A DNA stretch of 38,217 nt from Sphingobacterium sp. UBA4616 (GTDB lineage: Bacteria; Bacteroidota; Bacteroidia; Sphingobacteriales; Sphingobacteriaceae): assembly GCA_002386525.1 (NCBI GenBank), contig DGIS01000016.1, positions 17,418 to 55,634 of the forward strand, written 5' to 3'. Below the pieces are notes generated by a model that did no database searches, was not told where the DNA came from, and saw nothing but the letters and a program-made list of their open reading frames with translations. How positions within the stretch are numbered: position 1 is the first letter of the stretch; each line of letters begins with the position of its first letter. This document shows positions 19,700 through 33,505 of this stretch, one piece after another. The position numbers and the translations under genes were made by a program.

Positions 19700-20957
19700 T
19701 CAAAAAACTAGTTTCTTTGGGAAGATAGACTGGCTGACCATAACCCTTTGGCTCGCGCTATGCTTAATTGGCTTATTCAATATCCGTGCTGCTGTGTTTA
19801 ACCCCGAACTGCCCAATTTCTTTACATTGGGTACGAATTATGGAAAACAGTCTTTATATCTTGTTTCCGCTATTATCTTGGGGGTATCCATTTTGATCAT
19901 AGACGCTAAATTTTTCAGCTCGGCTTCACCAATATTTTACGGTATAACTGCTGTACTGCTTGTGATCGTATTGGTCGTAGGACGAAATGTTGGTGGAAAT
20001 CAGGCCTGGATCGACCTCGGTTTTTTCCGCTTACAACCTTCGGAGTTTGCGAAACTTTCGACCTGCCTGTTGCTGGCCAACTTTTTAAGTTCTCAAAGCA
20101 ATAAGGCTCCAACCATGCAGACTTTGGCTATGGGGGCCGGTATTGTATTATTCCCTGTATTTCTGGTGATGTTACAACCCGATACTGGATCTGCGCTCGC
20201 ATTCTTTTCGTTGATTTTTGTATTCTACCGAGAGGGCTATGTGAATAATGAGCTTCTGATATTTGGAGGTCTCTGCATTTTGCTTTTCGTCCTTGCTTTA
20301 TTGGTCAATCCATGGATACTTATTTTGGTTTTGGCATTACTCATTGGCCTTGTGATGTGGAACTACCGCAAGAGAAGGAAATACATTATTAATCTCAGTA
20401 TACTTTTTGCGGCGTGTGCAGTATTTATTCTCTGTGTGGACCTCGTGTATGACCATGTCTTACAATCGCATCAACGTGATCGTATTGACATCATTTTAGG
20501 CAAAATGGAAGATCCTAAGGGAAAGGGCTATAATTTGAACCAGTCTAAAATTGCAATTGGATCGGGACAGCTTTTGGGAAAAGGTTATTTACAGGGAACC
20601 CAGACAAAATATAACTTCGTACCTGAGCAAAGTACAGATTTTATTTTCTGCACGGTTGGAGAGGAATGGGGCTTTGTCGGATCGGTTACCTTATTACTGA
20701 TCTATCTCACGCTACTGTTACGCATTATTCACATTGCCGAACGACAGCGTTCGGCCTTCGCCAGAATCTATGCATATGGTGTAGCCTCCATTCTATTTTT
20801 TCACTTGTTTATTAATATCGGCATGACAATAGGTATTGTACCCGTTATCGGGATACCACTACCTTTTATCAGCTACGGGGGCTCGTCTTTGTGGAGTTTT
20901 ACGATTTTGCTGTTTATCATGCTTAAATTTGATTCAAATAGAAAAGGAATTGTTTAA
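19692..20957 (+). CDS. rodA: Rod-shape SEDS glycosyltransferase RodA
   Basis: SEDS-family peptidoglycan polymerase that pairs with PBP2 in the elongasome. The 421-residue, about ten-span inner-membrane protein has the family regions RLQPSEFAKLS (near 115), MLQPDTGSAL (near 160), the loop with YNLNQSKIAIGSGQLLGKGYLQGTQ, FVPEQSTDFIF, and the C-terminal GIPLPFISYGGSSL. The loop between the fourth and seventh spans is somewhat long. The last eight codons and part of the stop codon form the left arm of a perfect 25-bp hairpin, so the coding end and the terminator share sequence. Confidence 0.96.
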   Translation: MNNQKTSFFGKIDWLTITLWLALCLIGLFNIRAAVFNPELPNFFTLGTNYGKQSLYLVSAIILGVSILIIDAKFFSSASPIFYGITAVLLVIVLVVGRNVGGNQAWIDLGFFRLQPSEFAKLSTCLLLANFLSSQSNKAPTMQTLAMGAGIVLFPVFLVMLQPDTGSALAFFSLIFVFYREGYVNNELLIFGGLCILLFVLALLVNPWILILVLALLIGLVMWNYRKRRKYIINLSILFAACAVFILCVDLVYDHVLQSHQRDRIDIILGKMEDPKGKGYNLNQSKIAIGSGQLLGKGYLQGTQTKYNFVPEQSTDFIFCTVGEEWGFVGSVTLLLIYLTLLLRIIHIAERQRSAFARIYAYGVASILFFHLFINIGMTIGIVPVIGIPLPFISYGGSSLWSFTILLFIMLKFDSNRKGIV

Positions 20958-23391: not shown

Positions 23392-23703
23392 TCAAAATCT
23401 ATTTATTTCCAGCGTCCACGATTTCCCCCGAACGAGCTGATATTCCAATTTCAAAAATAAATATGCACACAGCATATGCTGTGTTGATGTGTAAGATATT
23501 AGATAGCCCTGTCCGACCAAATCCCGATTGATAAATTTTTCCCCAAGATACACATAAGCAATAAATCTTCCATACCGATCGTGCTTTCTTAGATTAAATA
23601 TCAATTTCGCATGATATCTGCCTTTGATCGAATTGAAATATTGGCGTACCCCTACCCTTAATAACCTATTTATTCCATAAAAATGAATTCGCTTGACATA
23701 CAA
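23392..23703 (-). pseudogene. Degenerate staphylococcal-nuclease-like ORF
   Basis: A 103-codon frame whose centre, HDRYGRFIAYVYLGEKFINRDLVGQGYL in outline, matches the conserved core of thermonuclease (SNase) domains, including the Arg of the YGR motif. The usual metal and catalytic segment before it (RLxGIDxPE) is replaced by HFYGINRLL, so the Arg, Asp and Glu of the active site are missing. The Glu-Ala-Arg...GLW ending is only roughly kept (LEYQLVRGKSW). There is no ATG, only TTG at 23701-23703, and no normal signal peptide. I infer a decayed nuclease gene. Because its stop is three bases before the transporter ATG, continued translation as an inactive SNase-fold protein is the alternative. 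Confidence 0.5.
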
Positions 23704-24026
23704 CTCAGAAATTGATCCAAGGAAATGAGTTTCTTCTTCGCAAAAAACAAGGATAAAAAACTGTAAATATTAGCATAAAAAACACATTTTTTAAACAAAA
23801 AAACATAATAAAAAAAACATAATTTATATGAAATATTAAACGATAAAATCAATCAAAAAAAAGCTTAAAATAAATTAAAAAAACACATAAAATATTAAAA
23901 ATCAATAATATAAAAAAAATTTGAATCAACAAATAATGTTATAAAAATGATTAAAAATGAGACTTTAAAAAGCTTAAAAAAAACACAATAATATAGAGGT
24001 AAAAATAGAATAAAATTTATTTTTTC
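23704..24026. other. Extremely A/T-rich intergenic region
   Basis: About 320 bases dominated by A-runs on the plus strand, with almost no G or C. Short frames here are composition artefacts. It may hold an UP-type promoter element for the pheA leader or be decayed sequence upstream of the nuclease remnant. No gene, tRNA or repeat array is visible. Confidence 0.6.
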
Positions 24027-24056
24027 TTTGATATATAAAAAACATTCGTACATTTG
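24027..24056 (+). promoter_or_regulatory. Promoter of the pheA leader and operon
   Basis: TTTG (24027-24030), 18 bases, then TACATTTG (24049-24056): a full match to the Bacteroidota -33/-7 consensus. The -7 box ends 20 bases before the leader ATG, leaving a very short untranslated leader, as expected for an attenuator. Confidence 0.65.
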
Positions 24057-24076
24057 AAATATCAAACAATAGCAGG

Positions 24077-24142
24077 ATGAACAAAACATATACATATTTC
24101 TATTTTAGCTTCTTTTATTTTAACCATAAGAGCCGGGATTAG
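24077..24142 (+). CDS. Phe/Tyr-rich leader peptide of the pheA operon
   Basis: A 21-codon ORF, ATG 24077-24079 and TAG 24140-24142. Residues 4-15 read TYTYFYFSFFYF: four Tyr and five Phe within 11 consecutive positions (5-15). There is no Trp. Such a run is the hallmark of leader peptides that sense charged tRNA (compare the Phe-rich pheL of E. coli). It lies between a good promoter and a terminator located before pheA, which encodes the first enzyme of the Phe branch. The role is inferred: ribosomes should stall at these codons when Phe-tRNA or Tyr-tRNA is scarce and so prevent termination. AGCAGG precedes the ATG but is too close to be a normal Shine-Dalgarno. Confidence 0.85.
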   Translation: MNKTYTYFYFSFFYFNHKSRD

Positions 24143-24186
24143 ATTGTGTATAAGTCATAAGAACACAAACAAAAGAGTCCCGGTTC
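24130..24186 (+). promoter_or_regulatory. Antiterminator pairing of the pheA attenuator
   Basis: GAGCCGGGAT (24130-24139) can pair over ten positions with GTCCCGGTTC (24177-24186), with two G-U pairs. The second strand overlaps the terminator 5' arm, so the two structures exclude each other. The first strand overlaps the last leader codons and abuts the stop. A ribosome at the stop would mask it; a ribosome stalled on the aromatic codons would leave it free. Confidence 0.7.
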
Positions 24187-24206
24187 GAATGATCGGGACT
24201 CTTTTT
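24171..24206 (+). terminator. Attenuator terminator upstream of pheA
   Basis: Perfect 12-bp stem (24171-24182 with 24194-24205), 11-base loop, ending in a T-run (24202-24206). It lies between the leader peptide and the pheA ATG at 24238, where a terminator only makes sense as conditional control of pheA. Confidence 0.85.
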
Positions 24207-24237
24207 GTTTGGAGACAAAACAGCAAACAAAAAAACA

Positions 24238-25062
24238 ATGAGTTTAAAAATTGCAATACAAGGCGCAAAGGCATCATTTCATGAAGAAGCTGCATTTAAA
24301 TTTTTCGGAAGAGAAGTTGAAATTGTCGAATGTGATTCGTTTAAGAAAACTTGTGAATTGCTGAAGCAGAGAAAAGTCGACTATATCGTTATGGCGATCG
24401 AAAATTCAATTGCCGGAAGCCTATTACCAAACTATAATTTGCTAAGAGATTACAAGTTTCATATTACTGGCGAAGTCTACCTAAACATTCAGCAGAATCT
24501 CATGGTATTGCCTGGAGTGAAATTAAAAGATATCAAACATATCGAATCGCATCCGATTGCTATTCGCCAATGTGAAGAATTTCTTTCAGAGCTGGAAGGA
24601 GTACGTATAACGGAGGGTTCTGACACTGCGGCGACTGCAAAAATGATTGCTGAGCGCAAATTAACTGACACAGCTGCAATCGCAGGCACACTGGCCGCTG
24701 AGGTTTACGGGCTTGAAATCCTGGAGAAGAGAATCGAAACCAATAAAAAGAATGCTACCCGCTTTTTGGTATTATCGAATGAGGTAGTAGAACATAAAAA
24801 TGCAAATAAAGCATCATTATCTTTCCAAACAGGCAATACGGTCGGATCTCTAGCAACCATTTTACAATGTTTTGCAGACCAAAATATCAATCTGAGCAAA
24901 ATTCAGTCGATGCCCGTCATTGGGAAGCGCAATGAGTATGACTTTTTCGTCGACGTGGAATGGAAAAAGCAGACGGACTACGAAGCAGCTATCCGGAAAG
25001 TTCTCAAACATAGTATCAATTTCAATATTATGGGCGAATATGTCAAAAACGAAAAATTATAA
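24238..25062 (+). CDS. pheA: Prephenate dehydratase
   Basis: Converts prephenate to phenylpyruvate, the branch step to phenylalanine, in the cytoplasm. The 274-residue, monofunctional protein has the catalytic domain at about residues 4-180 (start IAIQGAKASFHEEAAFKFF, then VDYIVMAIENSIAGS and the conserved region around NKKNATRFLVLS). A C-terminal ACT domain (about 190-270, with NTVGSLATILQCFADQNINLSKIQSMP in outline) gives Phe feedback inhibition in the family. I chose the ATG at 24238; an earlier TTG at 24205 lies inside the attenuator terminator. It heads the aromatic operon with the DAHP synthase fusion and aroA. Confidence 0.95.
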   Translation: MSLKIAIQGAKASFHEEAAFKFFGREVEIVECDSFKKTCELLKQRKVDYIVMAIENSIAGSLLPNYNLLRDYKFHITGEVYLNIQQNLMVLPGVKLKDIKHIESHPIAIRQCEEFLSELEGVRITEGSDTAATAKMIAERKLTDTAAIAGTLAAEVYGLEILEKRIETNKKNATRFLVLSNEVVEHKNANKASLSFQTGNTVGSLATILQCFADQNINLSKIQSMPVIGKRNEYDFFVDVEWKKQTDYEAAIRKVLKHSINFNIMGEYVKNEKL

Positions 25063-25101: not shown

Positions 25102-26214
25102 ATGAAAAATACATTAGACATCACTCCTTTAAAATCTTGGTTGGACACAGGAGACAAACCTTTAATCATTGCAGGCCCTTGTAGTGCTGAAACAGAAGAG
25201 CAGTTGGTATCAACAGCACATTTGTTGGCAAATACAGGAAAAGTAAATATTTTACGTGCCGGCATCTGGAAACCACGCACTCGTCCTGGAGAATTTGAGG
25301 GTATTGGTTCAATTGGCCTAGAATGGCTAAAAAGAGCAAAAGAGGAGACTGGTCTATTAACAGCGACTGAAGTTGCTACAGCGAAACATGTGGAAGAAGC
25401 TTTAGCTGCTGGTGTGGATGTGCTATGGGTAGGTGCACGTTCAACAGCGAATCCATTTACTGTCCAAGAAATCGCTGATGCTTTACAAGGTATAGATATT
25501 CCGGTATTCGTTAAAAATCCTGTAAACCCAGATTTATCTTTATGGATCGGTGCATTGGAACGTATCAATCGTGCTGGTATTAAAAAATTGGGTGCTATCC
25601 ATAGAGGCTTCTCTTCGTACGAAAAAACCGCATTTCGTAATGAACCGATGTGGGATTTAGCAATCCAATTAAAAACCGCTTGTCCTAACTTACCAATCAT
25701 TAACGATCCAAGTCACATCTGTGGAAACCGCGAATTGCTACCGTATATCGCACAAAAAGCAATGGATATGGATATGCAAGGATTGATTATCGAATCGCAT
25801 ATCGACCCATCTGTTGCATGGACTGATGCTAAACAACAAGTTACTCCTGCTGCATTAGCCGATTTGATCGATCACTTAACTTTACGTAAGGCGGCGTCCG
25901 ACAATCCTTCATTCGAAGACAAATTAGCTGAATTGCGTAGCAACATCGATAAATTAGATGACTTAATCATCCAAAAAATTGGGGAACGCATGAAAATTGC
26001 AGAGAAAATCGGAGAATACAAAAGGGATAACAATGTTACTATCTTACAAGTAAACCGTTGGGATGAGATTGTTCAAAAACGCACCAAATTAGCAGAGGCG
26101 CTTTCGTTGGGAAGTGAATTTGCGACAAAATTCCTCGAATTAATTCACAACGAATCTATTCGCAAACAAAATGTGGTCATGAACACTCAGGAACAACCAA
26201 CAGCAGAAGCATAA
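25102..26214 (+). CDS. DAHP synthase / chorismate mutase fusion
   Basis: Bifunctional enzyme: condenses phosphoenolpyruvate and erythrose-4-phosphate to DAHP (shikimate pathway entry) and rearranges chorismate to prephenate. The 370-residue protein has the type I-beta DAHP synthase domain at about residues 15-255 (IAGPCSAE, LRAGIWKPRTRPGEFEGIG, VFVKNPVNPDLSLWIGA, INDPSHICG) and an AroQ-type chorismate mutase at about 270-355 (LAELRSNIDKLDDLIIQKIGERMKIAEKIGEYK in outline). Linking the first and a late step lets the mutase part act as a regulatory domain in known relatives. It is 39 bases after pheA; its stop overlaps the aroA start as TAATG. No tyrA is in the window. Confidence 0.95.
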   Translation: MKNTLDITPLKSWLDTGDKPLIIAGPCSAETEEQLVSTAHLLANTGKVNILRAGIWKPRTRPGEFEGIGSIGLEWLKRAKEETGLLTATEVATAKHVEEALAAGVDVLWVGARSTANPFTVQEIADALQGIDIPVFVKNPVNPDLSLWIGALERINRAGIKKLGAIHRGFSSYEKTAFRNEPMWDLAIQLKTACPNLPIINDPSHICGNRELLPYIAQKAMDMDMQGLIIESHIDPSVAWTDAKQQVTPAALADLIDHLTLRKAASDNPSFEDKLAELRSNIDKLDDLIIQKIGERMKIAEKIGEYKRDNNVTILQVNRWDEIVQKRTKLAEALSLGSEFATKFLELIHNESIRKQNVVMNTQEQPTAEA

Positions 26215-27464
26215 TGAATCAACAAGTCATCACGCTGACGCATCCTTCAAAAAAAATACAGGGTACGGTTCAACTCACAGGTTCAAAATCTGAGAGCAAC
26301 CGTGCTCTTATTATCCAATCATTGAGCAAAGGACAAGTTGAAATAGCCAACCTTTCTGAAGCTGCAGATACGGTAACGTTAAACCATGTGCTGCAGATTG
26401 CTTCCGATCCGAAACCAGGATTCAACACGATTGACATCGGTCCCGCAGGAACGGCCATGCGATTCTTAACGGCTTACCTCAACCTTGTCAAAGGAAATTT
26501 TATCCTTACAGGTACGGAACGCATGCAACAGCGTCCTATAGGTATATTGGTTGATGCCATGAAAGAGATTGGCGCTGACATCCACTATGAAAAGAAAGTC
26601 GGATACCCTCCTTTGAAGATTGAGGGCGGGCTGTTTCAAGGAAAAGACCGTGTCAAGATTAAGGGAGATATCAGCAGCCAATATATATCAGCCCTCTTAT
26701 TAATTGCACCAGCATTAAAAAAAGGGCTTACTTTAGAGATTGAGGGTGAATTAACCTCCAAACCTTACGTATCCATGACGTTGGATATGTTAAAAAGTGT
26801 AGGAATTCAACATGAGTGGACGAACAACGCGATTAAAATTGCGCCGCAGACATTTGATAAACAAACAATATATGTCGAGCCAGATTGGAGCGCTGCTTCC
26901 TATTGGTACGCTATCGTCGCACTGGCAGATGCGAATGCATCGATCGTATTGCCTGGATTAAGAAAAAATAGCTTACAGGGTGATATTGCGATTATAAGCA
27001 TTATGGAGCATTTCGGTGTACAGTCAAGCTTTGAATCAGACGGATTACATTTAAATAAAAAGTTAATCGATTCGGACATAAGCTTATTCAACTTTAAAGA
27101 ATGTCCCGATCTCGCACAAACTGTGGTTGTTGTCGCGGCTGCGTTAAAACGCGATGTATCCTTTACGGGCTTGGAAACTTTAAAAATCAAGGAGACTGAC
27201 CGTATTGCAGCACTGCAGAAGGAAATTGCGAAATTTGGAGCCGAGCTGATTGAAGATGGCGATACCTACCACCTGAAAACAGCACGGGTATATCAGCCTG
27301 AAGAGGTCACCTTCGATACTTACGAAGATCACCGCATGGCGATGGCGTTCGCACCACTGGCATTAGTTTTTGACCAGATTAAGATCGCTGAACCTCAAGT
27401 TGTAGAAAAATCATATCCTGATTTTTGGAATCATTTACAAGCGCAAGCTTTTGTCATTGACTAG
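26214..27464 (+). CDS. aroA: 3-phosphoshikimate 1-carboxyvinyltransferase (EPSP synthase)
   Basis: Joins phosphoenolpyruvate to shikimate-3-phosphate, the sixth shikimate step; the fold is shared with MurA. The 416-residue protein has the substrate-binding start LTGSKSESNRALI (near 22-34), the segment DIGPAGTAMRFLTAYL (PEP-binding Gly-x-Ala region), the conserved WSAASYWYA, IKETDRIAAL and the C-terminal DHRMAMAFAPLAL. The GPAGTAMR loop has Ala before Gly-Thr-Ala, as commonly seen in EPSP synthases; I do not infer a glyphosate phenotype. The start overlaps the upstream stop by one base (TAATG). It is the last gene before the hairpin at 27472-27504. Confidence 0.95.
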   Translation: MNQQVITLTHPSKKIQGTVQLTGSKSESNRALIIQSLSKGQVEIANLSEAADTVTLNHVLQIASDPKPGFNTIDIGPAGTAMRFLTAYLNLVKGNFILTGTERMQQRPIGILVDAMKEIGADIHYEKKVGYPPLKIEGGLFQGKDRVKIKGDISSQYISALLLIAPALKKGLTLEIEGELTSKPYVSMTLDMLKSVGIQHEWTNNAIKIAPQTFDKQTIYVEPDWSAASYWYAIVALADANASIVLPGLRKNSLQGDIAIISIMEHFGVQSSFESDGLHLNKKLIDSDISLFNFKECPDLAQTVVVVAAALKRDVSFTGLETLKIKETDRIAALQKEIAKFGAELIEDGDTYHLKTARVYQPEEVTFDTYEDHRMAMAFAPLALVFDQIKIAEPQVVEKSYPDFWNHLQAQAFVID

Positions 27465-27666: not shown

Positions 27667-28773
27667 ATGGCAGGAAATTCATTTGGCGACTTATTCAGAA
27701 TAAGCACTTTTGGCGAATCACATGGCAAAGCTATCGGTGTAATTATTGATGGTTGCCCTTCAAATATAATAATAGACGAGGATTTTATCCAATCCGAGCT
27801 CGACAAACGAAAACCAGGTCAATCCAAAATCACGACGCAAAGGAAAGAGAGTGATACAGCGCAAATATTATCCGGTGTATTCGAAGGAAAATCAACAGGT
27901 ACACCTATTGCGATTGTCATTCCAAATGAAGATCAGCGTTCGAAAGATTACACACATATCAAAGATATTTTCAGACCTTCTCATGCTGATTTCACCTATC
28001 AGATGAAATATGGCATCCGTGACTATCGCGGTGGAGGGCGTTCTTCTGCAAGGGAGACTGCTGCTCGTGTTGCTGCTGGTGCTGTTGCGAAGAGCTTTCT
28101 AAAACAATTTGGTATAGAAATCTTTGCCCACGTTTCTGGAGTTGGTACTATTGAAGCACAAAATGTGGATACAAAAGATCTAAAGAGCCTTCTTGATTTA
28201 CGGGAATCCAACATCGCACGTTGCGCGGATCCAGCAACAGCAAATGAAATGGTTGAATTTATCGATTCTATCAGAAAAGCTGGTGATACTGTTGGTGGAC
28301 GTATATCGGCTGTCATCAGACATGTCCCCGTAGGCTTAGGCGAACCCGTCTTTGATAAACTACATGCGGATCTGGCCAAGGCAATGATGAGCATCAATGC
28401 TGTACATGGTTTTGAATATGGTTCAGGTTTTGCTGGATCAGAGTTGCGAGGTTCCGAACATAATGATATATTTGTAGCAGATGACCATGATTTAACTCGA
28501 GTGCACACGCATACCAACTTCTCTGGAGGTATTCAGGGCGGGATTTCAAATGGTATGGATATTACGTTCAAAGTAGCATTTAAGCCTGTTGCCACTATCA
28601 TGAGAGATCAAGAGACGGTAGATGTCCATGGCAACCCTGCTATTGCTAGTGGCAAGGGAAGACATGACCCTTGCGTTGTTTCGAGAGCAGTAATTATTGT
28701 GGAAGCCATGGCAGCACTTGTAATCGCGGATCATCTACTTAAAAATCAAAGTTACAAACATGCTGCAAGATAA
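27667..28773 (+). CDS. aroC: Chorismate synthase
   Basis: Forms chorismate from EPSP using reduced FMN, the last common shikimate step. The 368-residue protein carries the family signatures [14 protein letters not shown] near the N-terminus (residues 18-31), [27 protein letters not shown] (about 116-142) and the C-terminal [28 protein letters not shown]. It is in the same direction as the aromatic operon but 202 bases after aroA, beyond a hairpin. The 3' end overlaps the ROK gene by 14 bases, suggesting cotranscription. Confidence 0.97.
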
Positions 28774-32140: not shown

Positions 32141-32205
32141 TTGTCAAATAAATTGACAATCGACAGTCCTCATTTGAAATAGAATATTCTAATTTATCAA
32201 ATTAG
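32141..32205. promoter_or_regulatory. Two operator-like palindromes in the E1/helicase divergent region
   Basis: TTGTCAA-N5-TTGACAA (32141-32159) and CTAATTT-ATC-AAATTAG (32189-32205) are perfect inverted repeats 29 bases apart, in the 228-base region between divergent genes. They may bind regulators of either gene. The A/T richness raises the chance of accidental symmetry, mainly for the second. Confidence 0.35.
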
Positions 32206-32314
32206 TACTTTTTGATAAAAAATCCTAATTTACATAGACTTTTTTATACCTATAACGACGTAAAACCAGCTTTGTCCTTTTTAATTTCTATTTTTGGATT
32301 TTATATTCATTATT

Positions 32315-33505
32315 TTGAATTTTTCAATACTAAAACTCGATAAATCCCTTAGCGCTAATCTTGAAAAACGAAAGCTTTCTTCGCTTACACCTGTTCAAGA
32401 AAGAGCTATCCCTGCCATTTTAGAGGGCAGGGATTGTTTAGCGATTGCACCGACCGGAACGGGGAAAACTGAGGCTTACGCGATTCCAATTATTCAGCGT
32501 TTACGAACTAAAATTACCGCTGACCGTCTATCGGTACTTGTACTGCTCCCGACCCGGGAACTTTGTATTCAAACCCAACAGCGCATAACGAATCTTATCG
32601 AAGGTATGGATTTGATCATCGCCAGCTTCTATGGCGGTGGAACTTATGAAAGTCAATTGGAGGTTTATCCGAACGCGCATATGATCCTTGCCACTCCGGG
32701 TCGTTTGCTGGATTTTCTGGATCGGGGGAGTATTGATTTGAAGACGATAGATACCTTGGTGGTCGATGAATTCGATCAATTGCTTGATCTCGGCTTTGCG
32801 GCGGATATCAACAAAATCATCAATAAATTACCCGCTGAGAGACAATCTATTTTTAGTTCGGCCACAAAAACCGCCGAAATCGAAAAAATTGTTCGAAAAA
32901 AGTTAAACAACCCTGTCGAGATCATTATTGATAGAGCCTTAAAAAAGGGCCGGATAGTGGAATCTGTAATGTATGTCGACAAGAATGATAAAAAGAGCCT
33001 ATTGGGCCATCTGCTTGAAAACAGGATTTCACGGCAGGCCATCGTTTTCACGCGAACAGTGCAAGGAGTCGAACGGATTGAAAAAGCATTAAACCGAAGT
33101 GGTGTTTCTTGTTTGGCTTTGTATGGCGATAAGTCGCAGCAAAAACGAGAAGAGATCATTGCTCAGTTTAGACGAAAAGAAGAACGTATTTTAATTGCAA
33201 CAGACCTGTTGGCACGTGGAGTAGATTTTCCGGATCTGGAGGCAATCATCAACTACGAAGTTCCAGATTCGCCAGAGCTATATACCCATCGGATCGGCCG
33301 GACTGGTCGTTCTGAGGCTGATGGAAAAGCCTTTACATTTTGCGACGCGGAAGACAACGAAAAATGGATCAAATTGCAACTCGCCTTAAAACGGCAAATT
33401 AGAATTGACGATCAGCACCCTTACTTGCTAAGCTGGGAGAAAATGCTTTCCAGTAGTCAAACCAATCCTCGGAAAGGCTCTTCAAAATCGAGAAAACGTC
33501 GTTAA
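32315..33505 (+). CDS. DEAD-box RNA helicase with DEFD motif II
   Basis: ATP-dependent RNA helicase, probably in ribosome assembly or RNA decay. The 396-residue protein shows the Q motif LTPVQERAIP, motif I APTGTGKT (residues 45-52), PTRELC, TPGR, motif II as VDEFD (Asp151, Glu152, Phe153, Asp154) in place of DEAD, SSAT (motif III), TDLLARGVDF (motif V) and HRIGRTGR (motif VI). A short basic tail (RKGSSKSRKRR) follows. There is no ATG near the N-terminus. I chose TTG at 32315, giving MNFSILKLDKSL, which fits the family. A TTG at 32294 overlaps a TAnnTTTG box (32289-32296) and adds residues without family support. Confidence 0.9.
   Translation: MNFSILKLDKSLSANLEKRKLSSLTPVQERAIPAILEGRDCLAIAPTGTGKTEAYAIPIIQRLRTKITADRLSVLVLLPTRELCIQTQQRITNLIEGMDLIIASFYGGGTYESQLEVYPNAHMILATPGRLLDFLDRGSIDLKTIDTLVVDEFDQLLDLGFAADINKIINKLPAERQSIFSSATKTAEIEKIVRKKLNNPVEIIIDRALKKGRIVESVMYVDKNDKKSLLGHLLENRISRQAIVFTRTVQGVERIEKALNRSGVSCLALYGDKSQQKREEIIAQFRRKEERILIATDLLARGVDFPDLEAIINYEVPDSPELYTHRIGRTGRSEADGKAFTFCDAEDNEKWIKLQLALKRQIRIDDQHPYLLSWEKMLSSSQTNPRKGSSKSRKRR

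Follow-up and report, generated by a model that had tools for sequence, protein, structure and literature searches.

A very probable ribosome-mediated transcription attenuator with a Phe/Tyr-rich leader peptide before the pheA operon of Sphingobacteriaceae

The leader that precedes pheA in the window (the whole stretch of DNA analysed, 38,217 nucleotides) is very probably a ribosome-mediated transcription attenuator of the trp/phe type. Direct reading of the plus strand gives, in this order, a Bacteroidota-type promoter (TTTG-N18-TACATTTG), a leader ORF, an intrinsic terminator and the pheA ATG at 24238, and the products of the operon constitute the pathway making the very amino acids that would be sensed (Table 1). 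This anatomy is conserved among relatives, its helices covary, and in a folding model the ribosome masks the leader RNA in a position-specific manner. The initial annotation had likewise read the region as an attenuator, which is supported by the present analysis, but it contained neither the antiterminator pairing nor hairpin B, both of which are described below.

The two promoter elements were assigned according to what we take to be the Bacteroidota consensus. Such a promoter had been claimed in the initial annotation, and the match is both present in the window and recurrent in relatives: in 91 of 101 representatives TAnnTTTG is found no more than 90 nt 5' of where the leader starts (6% of shuffles), and TTTG-(16-22)-TAnnTTTG precedes the leader in 49 of the 101 (0.1% of shuffles). 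The stretch before the promoter (23701-24030) has a GC content of 17%, vs 40% for the window, and contains long A runs. The 154-nt leader folds with z = -5.0, none of 200 shuffles being equally stable. The order pheA, DAHP synthase-chorismate mutase, aroA, aroC was observed in 76 of the 80 named loci (the best 80 of 216 from the GTDB contig collection), the other four showing the first three genes; the closest named loci among these 80 belong to Sphingobacterium, their PheA being 99% identical to that of the window. When the window itself was scanned for a leader followed by a terminator (1264 overlapping 330-nt tiles, step 60, both strands, threshold of 7 aromatic codons in 12), six tiles were positive, four of them representing the pheA site and two a single other place, 32161-32550. 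The latter holds a TTG-started ORF (32212-32343), and a second, differently defined terminator search gave there only a hairpin of -6.2 kcal/mol; it was taken as a chance match.

Table 1. Features of the pheA leader and of the genes following it, in coordinates of the window
Feature	Position	Strand	Description
Bacteroidota-type promoter	24027..24056	+	TTTG 24027-24030, 18-nt spacer, TACATTTG 24049-24056; read from the sequence
Leader ORF	24077..24142	+	ATG 24077, 21 codons and TAG (24140-24142), MNKTYTYFYFSFFYFNHKSRD; aromatic-rich leaders in 163 of 166 upstream regions
Control codons 5-15	24089..24121	+	Phe or Tyr in nine of eleven
Stem A, 5' strand	24090..24096	+	Codons 5-7; possible pairing with 24145-24151
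Hairpin B	24112..24132	+	24112-24118 (end of Phe12, Phe13 and Tyr14 codons) with 24126-24132; loop 24119-24125
Segment 2, antiterminator 5' strand	24130..24140	+	Last leader codons and first base of the stop; 11 pairs with 24176-24186
Stem A, 3' strand	24145..24151	+	Directly after the leader stop
Intrinsic terminator	24172..24209	+	24172-24185 paired with 24191-24204, then a T-rich tail up to 24209; both-side changes at 13 of the 14 pairs; folds
Segment 3, shared strand	24176..24186	+	Pairs with segment 2 (antiterminator) or segment 4 (terminator)
pheA, prephenate dehydratase with ACT domain	24238..25062	+	PF00800, E 6.9e-58; PF01842 slightly under the cut-off
DAHP synthase-chorismate mutase fusion	25102..26214	+	PF00793, PF01817
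aroA, EPSP synthase	26214..27464	+	TIGR01356 above the cut-off
aroC, chorismate synthase	27667..28773	+	TIGR00033 above the cut-off

Relatives of PheA were sampled from 59 related genomes (42 hits), 151 genomes of the family (135 hits), the best 80 of 216 GTDB contig loci and 247 genomes of the class (64 hits); the related genomes were chosen around genome G001, in which 48% of the sampled 31-letter words are common with the window. The family, taken as Sphingobacteriaceae from the names of the closest loci, was analyzed in 215 upstream regions (the window and L001-L214, with L133 and L134 coming from other families), of which 166 are distinct in their last 300 nt; 27 of the 135 family genome hits lie outside this set. 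A leader with terminator was called when an ORF containing at least six Phe, Tyr or Trp codons in 12 was followed, 5-90 nt on, by a hairpin of -12 kcal/mol or below with a T-rich tail. By this definition the two elements stand in the right order in 163 of the 166 distinct pheA upstream regions and in none of 664 dinucleotide shuffles. The family-wide comparison, which the initial annotation had proposed as a check, reveals that the aromatic codon run and the terminator are kept while the rest varies. The three regions in which leader and terminator were absent (L130-L132) belong to one genus. The pheA copies of these three are only 44-45% identical to the window's and may represent a different pheA, acquired or kept separately. 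One contig, L197, is filed as a Legionellaceae MAG; it encodes a PheA 66% identical to the window's behind a leader resembling those of Daejeonella and is most likely a misbinned Sphingobacteriaceae contig.

As the initial annotation had stated, nine Phe/Tyr codons are located among codons 5-15 of the 21-codon ORF, a count that is right by direct reading (positions 5, 7, 8, 9, 10, 12, 13, 14 and 15). Over the 101 representatives, Phe, Tyr and Trp account for 40% of the leader codons vs 6.8% in the four operon genes of the window. The last Phe-Tyr pair, found in 100 of 101 leaders, serves as an anchor and occupies two of the eight positions from -5 to +2; among the rest, five are 79-92% aromatic and the sixth has Gly most often (47 of 100). 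Since Phe, Tyr and Trp interchange at the aromatic positions of the representatives with the aromatic class being kept, the sequences point to selection acting on the class of codon rather than on a single peptide sequence. The leader peptides are about 14-29 residues long, and their C-terminal part varies while the RNA pairing is kept.

The helices were analyzed in a structural alignment (A1) of 101 sequences, dereplicated from 163, with 184 columns. An intrinsic terminator does lie between the leader and the first structural gene; the initial annotation had described it as a 12-bp stem with a T-run, and both the terminator and its T-rich tail are borne out, the stem being slightly longer at 14 pairs, including A-U and G-U ends. 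Changes on both sides at 13 of these pairs were matched in 0 of 500 shuffles, and the RNAalifold consensus of the alignment consists of the terminator alone. The antiterminator, which shares segment 3 with the terminator and is mutually exclusive with it, is kept in the family: its nine-pair core (24132-24140) has 87.8% of cells paired, every pair showing at least one both-side change, and the two outer pairs have 38.6%. The covariation score of this helix is 0.174, vs 0.144 for shuffles (reached by 0 of 500) and 0.03-0.09 for slid versions, and four of five measures are above shuffles (attained in no more than 2 of 500). The fifth, the 24 cells with changes on both sides, does not stand out, being attained by 53 of 500 shuffles and surpassed by two of the slid versions (34 and 26). 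Judged from the alignment, the alternative pairing needed for the mechanism appears to exist and, to a degree, to covary.

Hairpin B extends into segment 2, competing for its first three bases, and has 93.9% of its cells paired in A1. Its closing pair joins 24126 to the third base of the Tyr14 codon. No other pair of the alignment covaries more strongly, and it alone has E < 1 in the tree-based test (E 0.013); terminator pairs follow at E 2.5 or worse, and the two highest-placed antiterminator pairs are 40th and 41st in rank. This closing pair is C-G in 55, T-A in 40, T-G in 2 and unpaired in 3 of 100 sequences. The covariation of hairpin B stems mostly from it (40 of 47 changed cells), two of five measures not being above shuffles. 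When the hairpin was searched for sequence by sequence, a stem of at least five pairs was present in 90 of 101 (mean 6.49 pairs vs 2.90 with the downstream bases shuffled), and six switches between C-G and T-A were placed on the tree of these 90; since that search counts the stem from the closing pair, the lack of closing-pair mismatches in it is by construction. For stem A, the alignment gives no support in the register of the window itself, and the family register CATAT:ATATG, with 80.5% of cells paired (0 of 500 shuffles), receives modest support. Together, hairpin B and stem A may constitute a protector (1:2) fold, in which the pairing is good for the former and modest for the latter.

The effect of ribosome position was modelled on an RNA ending in the terminator loop, before segment 4, with the ribosome footprint masked. 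The free energy of the upstream RNA holding segment 3 was calculated for 101 leaders and for 303 controls whose spacer and segment 2 had been shuffled; the footprint sizes are those of the E. coli ribosome. With the A site placed three codons short of the last aromatic codon the median was -14.1 kcal/mol; it was -9.3 at that codon, -2.1 three codons past it, -2.5 at the stop codon and -5.9 without a ribosome, while the shuffled controls stayed at -3.4 to -4.0 kcal/mol throughout. Sequestration without a ribosome is thus intermediate, which would fit a protector fold made of hairpin B and stem A. A switch (stop minus stalled) of at least 4 kcal/mol was obtained for 99 of 101 real leaders vs 8 of 303 shuffles. 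For the window the values were -17.4 (stalled), -3.0 (stop) and -9.2 kcal/mol (ribosome-free); codon by codon they run from -13.7 at codon 5 to -17.7 at codon 13 and weaken to -10.9 at codon 15 and to -3.2 one codon further on, at codon 16, the drop falling between codons 14 and 16. In the model, the last control codon would accordingly be the final position still permitting a good antiterminator in the window. In a related count with a 14-nt footprint, 98 of 101 leaders had their last permissive codon at most one codon away from the last aromatic one; with footprints of 12 and 16 nt, 90 and 100 of the 101 did. Here the search for segment 2 was restricted to the bases following the last aromatic codon, which favours agreement; when it was extended to the whole leader, 72 of 101 were within one codon and 18 were without a drop. 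A cruder count of paired bases with any partner allowed separated real from shuffled leaders weakly (25 of 101 vs 6 of 101). Masking of the antiterminator by a ribosome at the stop codon and not by a stalled one is a result of the folding model only. As modelled, the last aromatic codon seems to be placed where the ribosome would start masking the antiterminator strand.

From these data we infer translation of the leader and a termination event responsive to Phe and Tyr. Transcription would start near 24060-24065, and the first ribosome would begin the 21-codon leader. With charged tRNA-Phe or tRNA-Tyr scarce, this ribosome would stall in codons 5-15 and melt the leader's own folds, stem A and hairpin B, leaving segment 2 free for segment 3; since the terminator cannot form when these two are paired, pheA, the DAHP synthase-chorismate mutase gene, aroA and probably aroC would be transcribed. 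With Phe and Tyr plentiful, the ribosome would continue beyond codon 15 as far as the stop codon, whose first base belongs to segment 2, and would mask that segment, whereupon the terminator (24172-24204) would stop transcription near 24209 and yield an RNA of about 145-150 nt. If no ribosome were present, stem A and hairpin B would presumably weaken the antiterminator, and basal termination would be favoured.

The same elements can be read in other ways. The terminator might be conditional with a ligand- or tRNA-binding RNA or a protein as its sensor (riboswitch, T-box, RNA-binding protein) and the ORF incidental, and hairpin B and stem A do resemble conserved RNA structures which a protein or a ligand could use too; we nevertheless consider such a sensor highly improbable, as the conserved stretch is a reading frame of aromatic codons ending at the masking threshold and the window yields no match at the gathering threshold to the T-box and riboswitch families of Rfam 15, to Bacteroid-trp (RF01692) or to any other Rfam family. 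Equally little weight is given to a leader working mainly through a released RNA or peptide in trans, or through translational coupling into pheA: a trans-acting trp leader peptide has been reported for Sinorhizobium meliloti (PMC7298713) and such roles can coexist with attenuation, but against this reading stand the variable length and C-terminal part of the peptide, next to a preserved RNA pairing, and the 95 nt between leader stop and pheA start, with the terminator in between. The least credible reading is that of an ordinary terminator behind a chance AT-rich reading frame, for although the upstream region is very AT-rich, Phe and Tyr codons being common by composition and an aromatic-rich ORF alone arising in 43 of 664 shuffles, the whole arrangement arose in none of them, the aromatic run is kept family-wide with F/Y/W exchanges, and a plain terminator would have no evident upstream transcript to end, because minus-strand ORFs lie immediately 5' of the promoter and, on the plus strand, no ORF of at least 100 codons is closer than the one ending at 20957.

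A covariance model built from A1 was run on the 59 relatives under strict filters, 57 candidates being scored per genome. In 35 of the 36 genomes of the genus a single match above 76 bits was obtained, each adjoining pheA; the only genus genome without a strong match, G033, is also without a pheA hit. Three genomes of other families score 52-65 bits, all at pheA, and over the 59 genomes the matches above 52 bits amount to one each in 38 genomes, all at pheA. The remaining listed matches have at most 42 bits, two more being at pheA (G038, G048) and one (G010) representing a trp leader. Among other-family loci picked for having a leader (34 of 37), 28 match the model at the pheA leader with E <= 0.01 (for example, L242 with 61.8, L268 with 60.8 and L259 with 53.1 bits); with the same model, 25.5 bits (E 0.03) are obtained at a his leader locus, and the weakest other-family pheA matches are therefore not decisive. 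In the class sample, which comprises the genomes with a PheA match to the window query (64 of 247), leader and terminator were found in 33 of 56 pheA regions of Bacteroidia outside the family, belonging to 14 of 24 families, and in 0 of 560 block shuffles; a looser threshold gave 37 of 56 regions and 15 families vs 4 of 560 shuffles. In one family of the class (f12), a pheA attenuator was found in 0 of 8 genomes (L225-L228, L230-L233), their PheA being 50-55% identical. Clade-wide loss or a different operon context may apply in this family. That one ancestral aromatic attenuator, inherited and not reinvented, precedes pheA over much of Bacteroidia, pooling Phe and Tyr (in some genera also Trp) codons, gating the chorismate trunk together with the Phe branch and using its control codons as one strand of the protector hairpin, is a serious possibility, towards which we stop just short of leaning. 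Were it true, RNA polymerase and the first ribosome must travel closely together in Bacteroidota. Flavobacterial translation starts are reported to rely on signals other than Shine-Dalgarno (PMC9723704).

Comparable leaders were sought at other amino-acid operons. Upstream of trpE, a leader with WWW and a terminator was found in 17 of 24 loci, including 15 of 18 of the genus, and two more of the genus carry WW, the eighteenth genus locus giving no usable reading; L301 and L310 are uninformative, being cut by the contig end. The genus loci L304, L306-L309, L311, L313-L316 and L319-L323 combine the WWW leader (MTRRYTNTNWWWPGAISIGNQLVLL in G001) with a strong terminator. On the evidence of these sequences, a Trp attenuator appears to exist beside the Phe/Tyr one in the genus. 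Of five other-family hisG loci, four (L277, L288, L296, L299) possess a terminator behind a leader with a His run (His at five or six of 12 codons). In the genus, the His-rich ORF at hisG locus L297 (MVYTYVHHFHFHHRRCGDMLI in G001) overlaps a hairpin ATCGCC...GGCGAT without a clear T-tract, and the other genus hisG loci (L279-L287, L289-L295, L298) look likewise by hairpin listing alone, unlike L277, L288, L296 and L299. No convincing similar leader was found before ilvD in 23 genus loci, and two of four other-family ilvD loci have candidate leaders rich in Ile, Leu and Val.

Taken together, these results define an example of ribosome-mediated attenuation that is conserved in Sphingobacteriaceae and in other Bacteroidia, can be tested and has no matching Rfam family, and they indicate how an aromatic operon there can be controlled by its own end products. 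The attenuator is well supported, and the pooling of Phe and Tyr, hairpin B and the spread over Bacteroidia are its new details. The system makes transcription-translation coupling in Bacteroidota directly testable, and the covariance model of the pheA leader could found a new RNA family.

Leader-peptide attenuation of the trp and phe operons is textbook knowledge, the E. coli pheL-pheA attenuator being represented in Rfam as Phe_leader (RF01859). Like the latter, the window has a short Phe-rich leader peptide, a competing antiterminator and terminator before pheA and an alternative pairing that extends over the leader end; unlike it, Phe and Tyr codons are mixed, with Trp codons too in 53 of 163 leaders, and the operon also contains DAHP synthase, aroA and aroC. 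The window reaches 24.0 bits with RF01859 itself, whose gathering score is 55; unrelated families listed alongside do at least as well, and membership in that family is therefore not demonstrable. Lopatovskaya, Seliverstov and Lyubetsky, in a comparative study of amino-acid operon attenuation reportedly from 2010, may already have predicted a phe attenuator in Bacteroidota. In the published literature searched, no description of a pheA attenuator was found for Sphingobacteriaceae, and only unrelated papers were retrieved on phenylalanine leader-peptide attenuation in Bacteroidetes. The initial annotation considered attenuation best documented in Proteobacteria; it is not confined to them, having already been proposed for amino-acid operons of Flavobacterium psychrophilum, in the transcriptome of which strong clues for leader-peptide attenuation were reported (PMC9723704). 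The Bacteroid-trp RNA, a Rfam motif of Bacteroidetes (RF01692; PMC2864571) reported to resemble the E. coli trp leader and to be present in F. psychrophilum (PMC6414381), is likewise an attenuator-like leader but differs in belonging to the Trp operon and thus to another amino acid. A structured 5' element has also been reported at pheA of F. psychrophilum and in other genera of Flavobacteriaceae, again without a Rfam match (PMC9723704). In the available parts of that source, this element is described without Phe/Tyr codons, an antiterminator or a link to other families (PMC9723704). Both elements precede the same gene in the same phylum and lack a Rfam match, and the pheA leaders of Sphingobacterium and F. 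psychrophilum are likely the same element.
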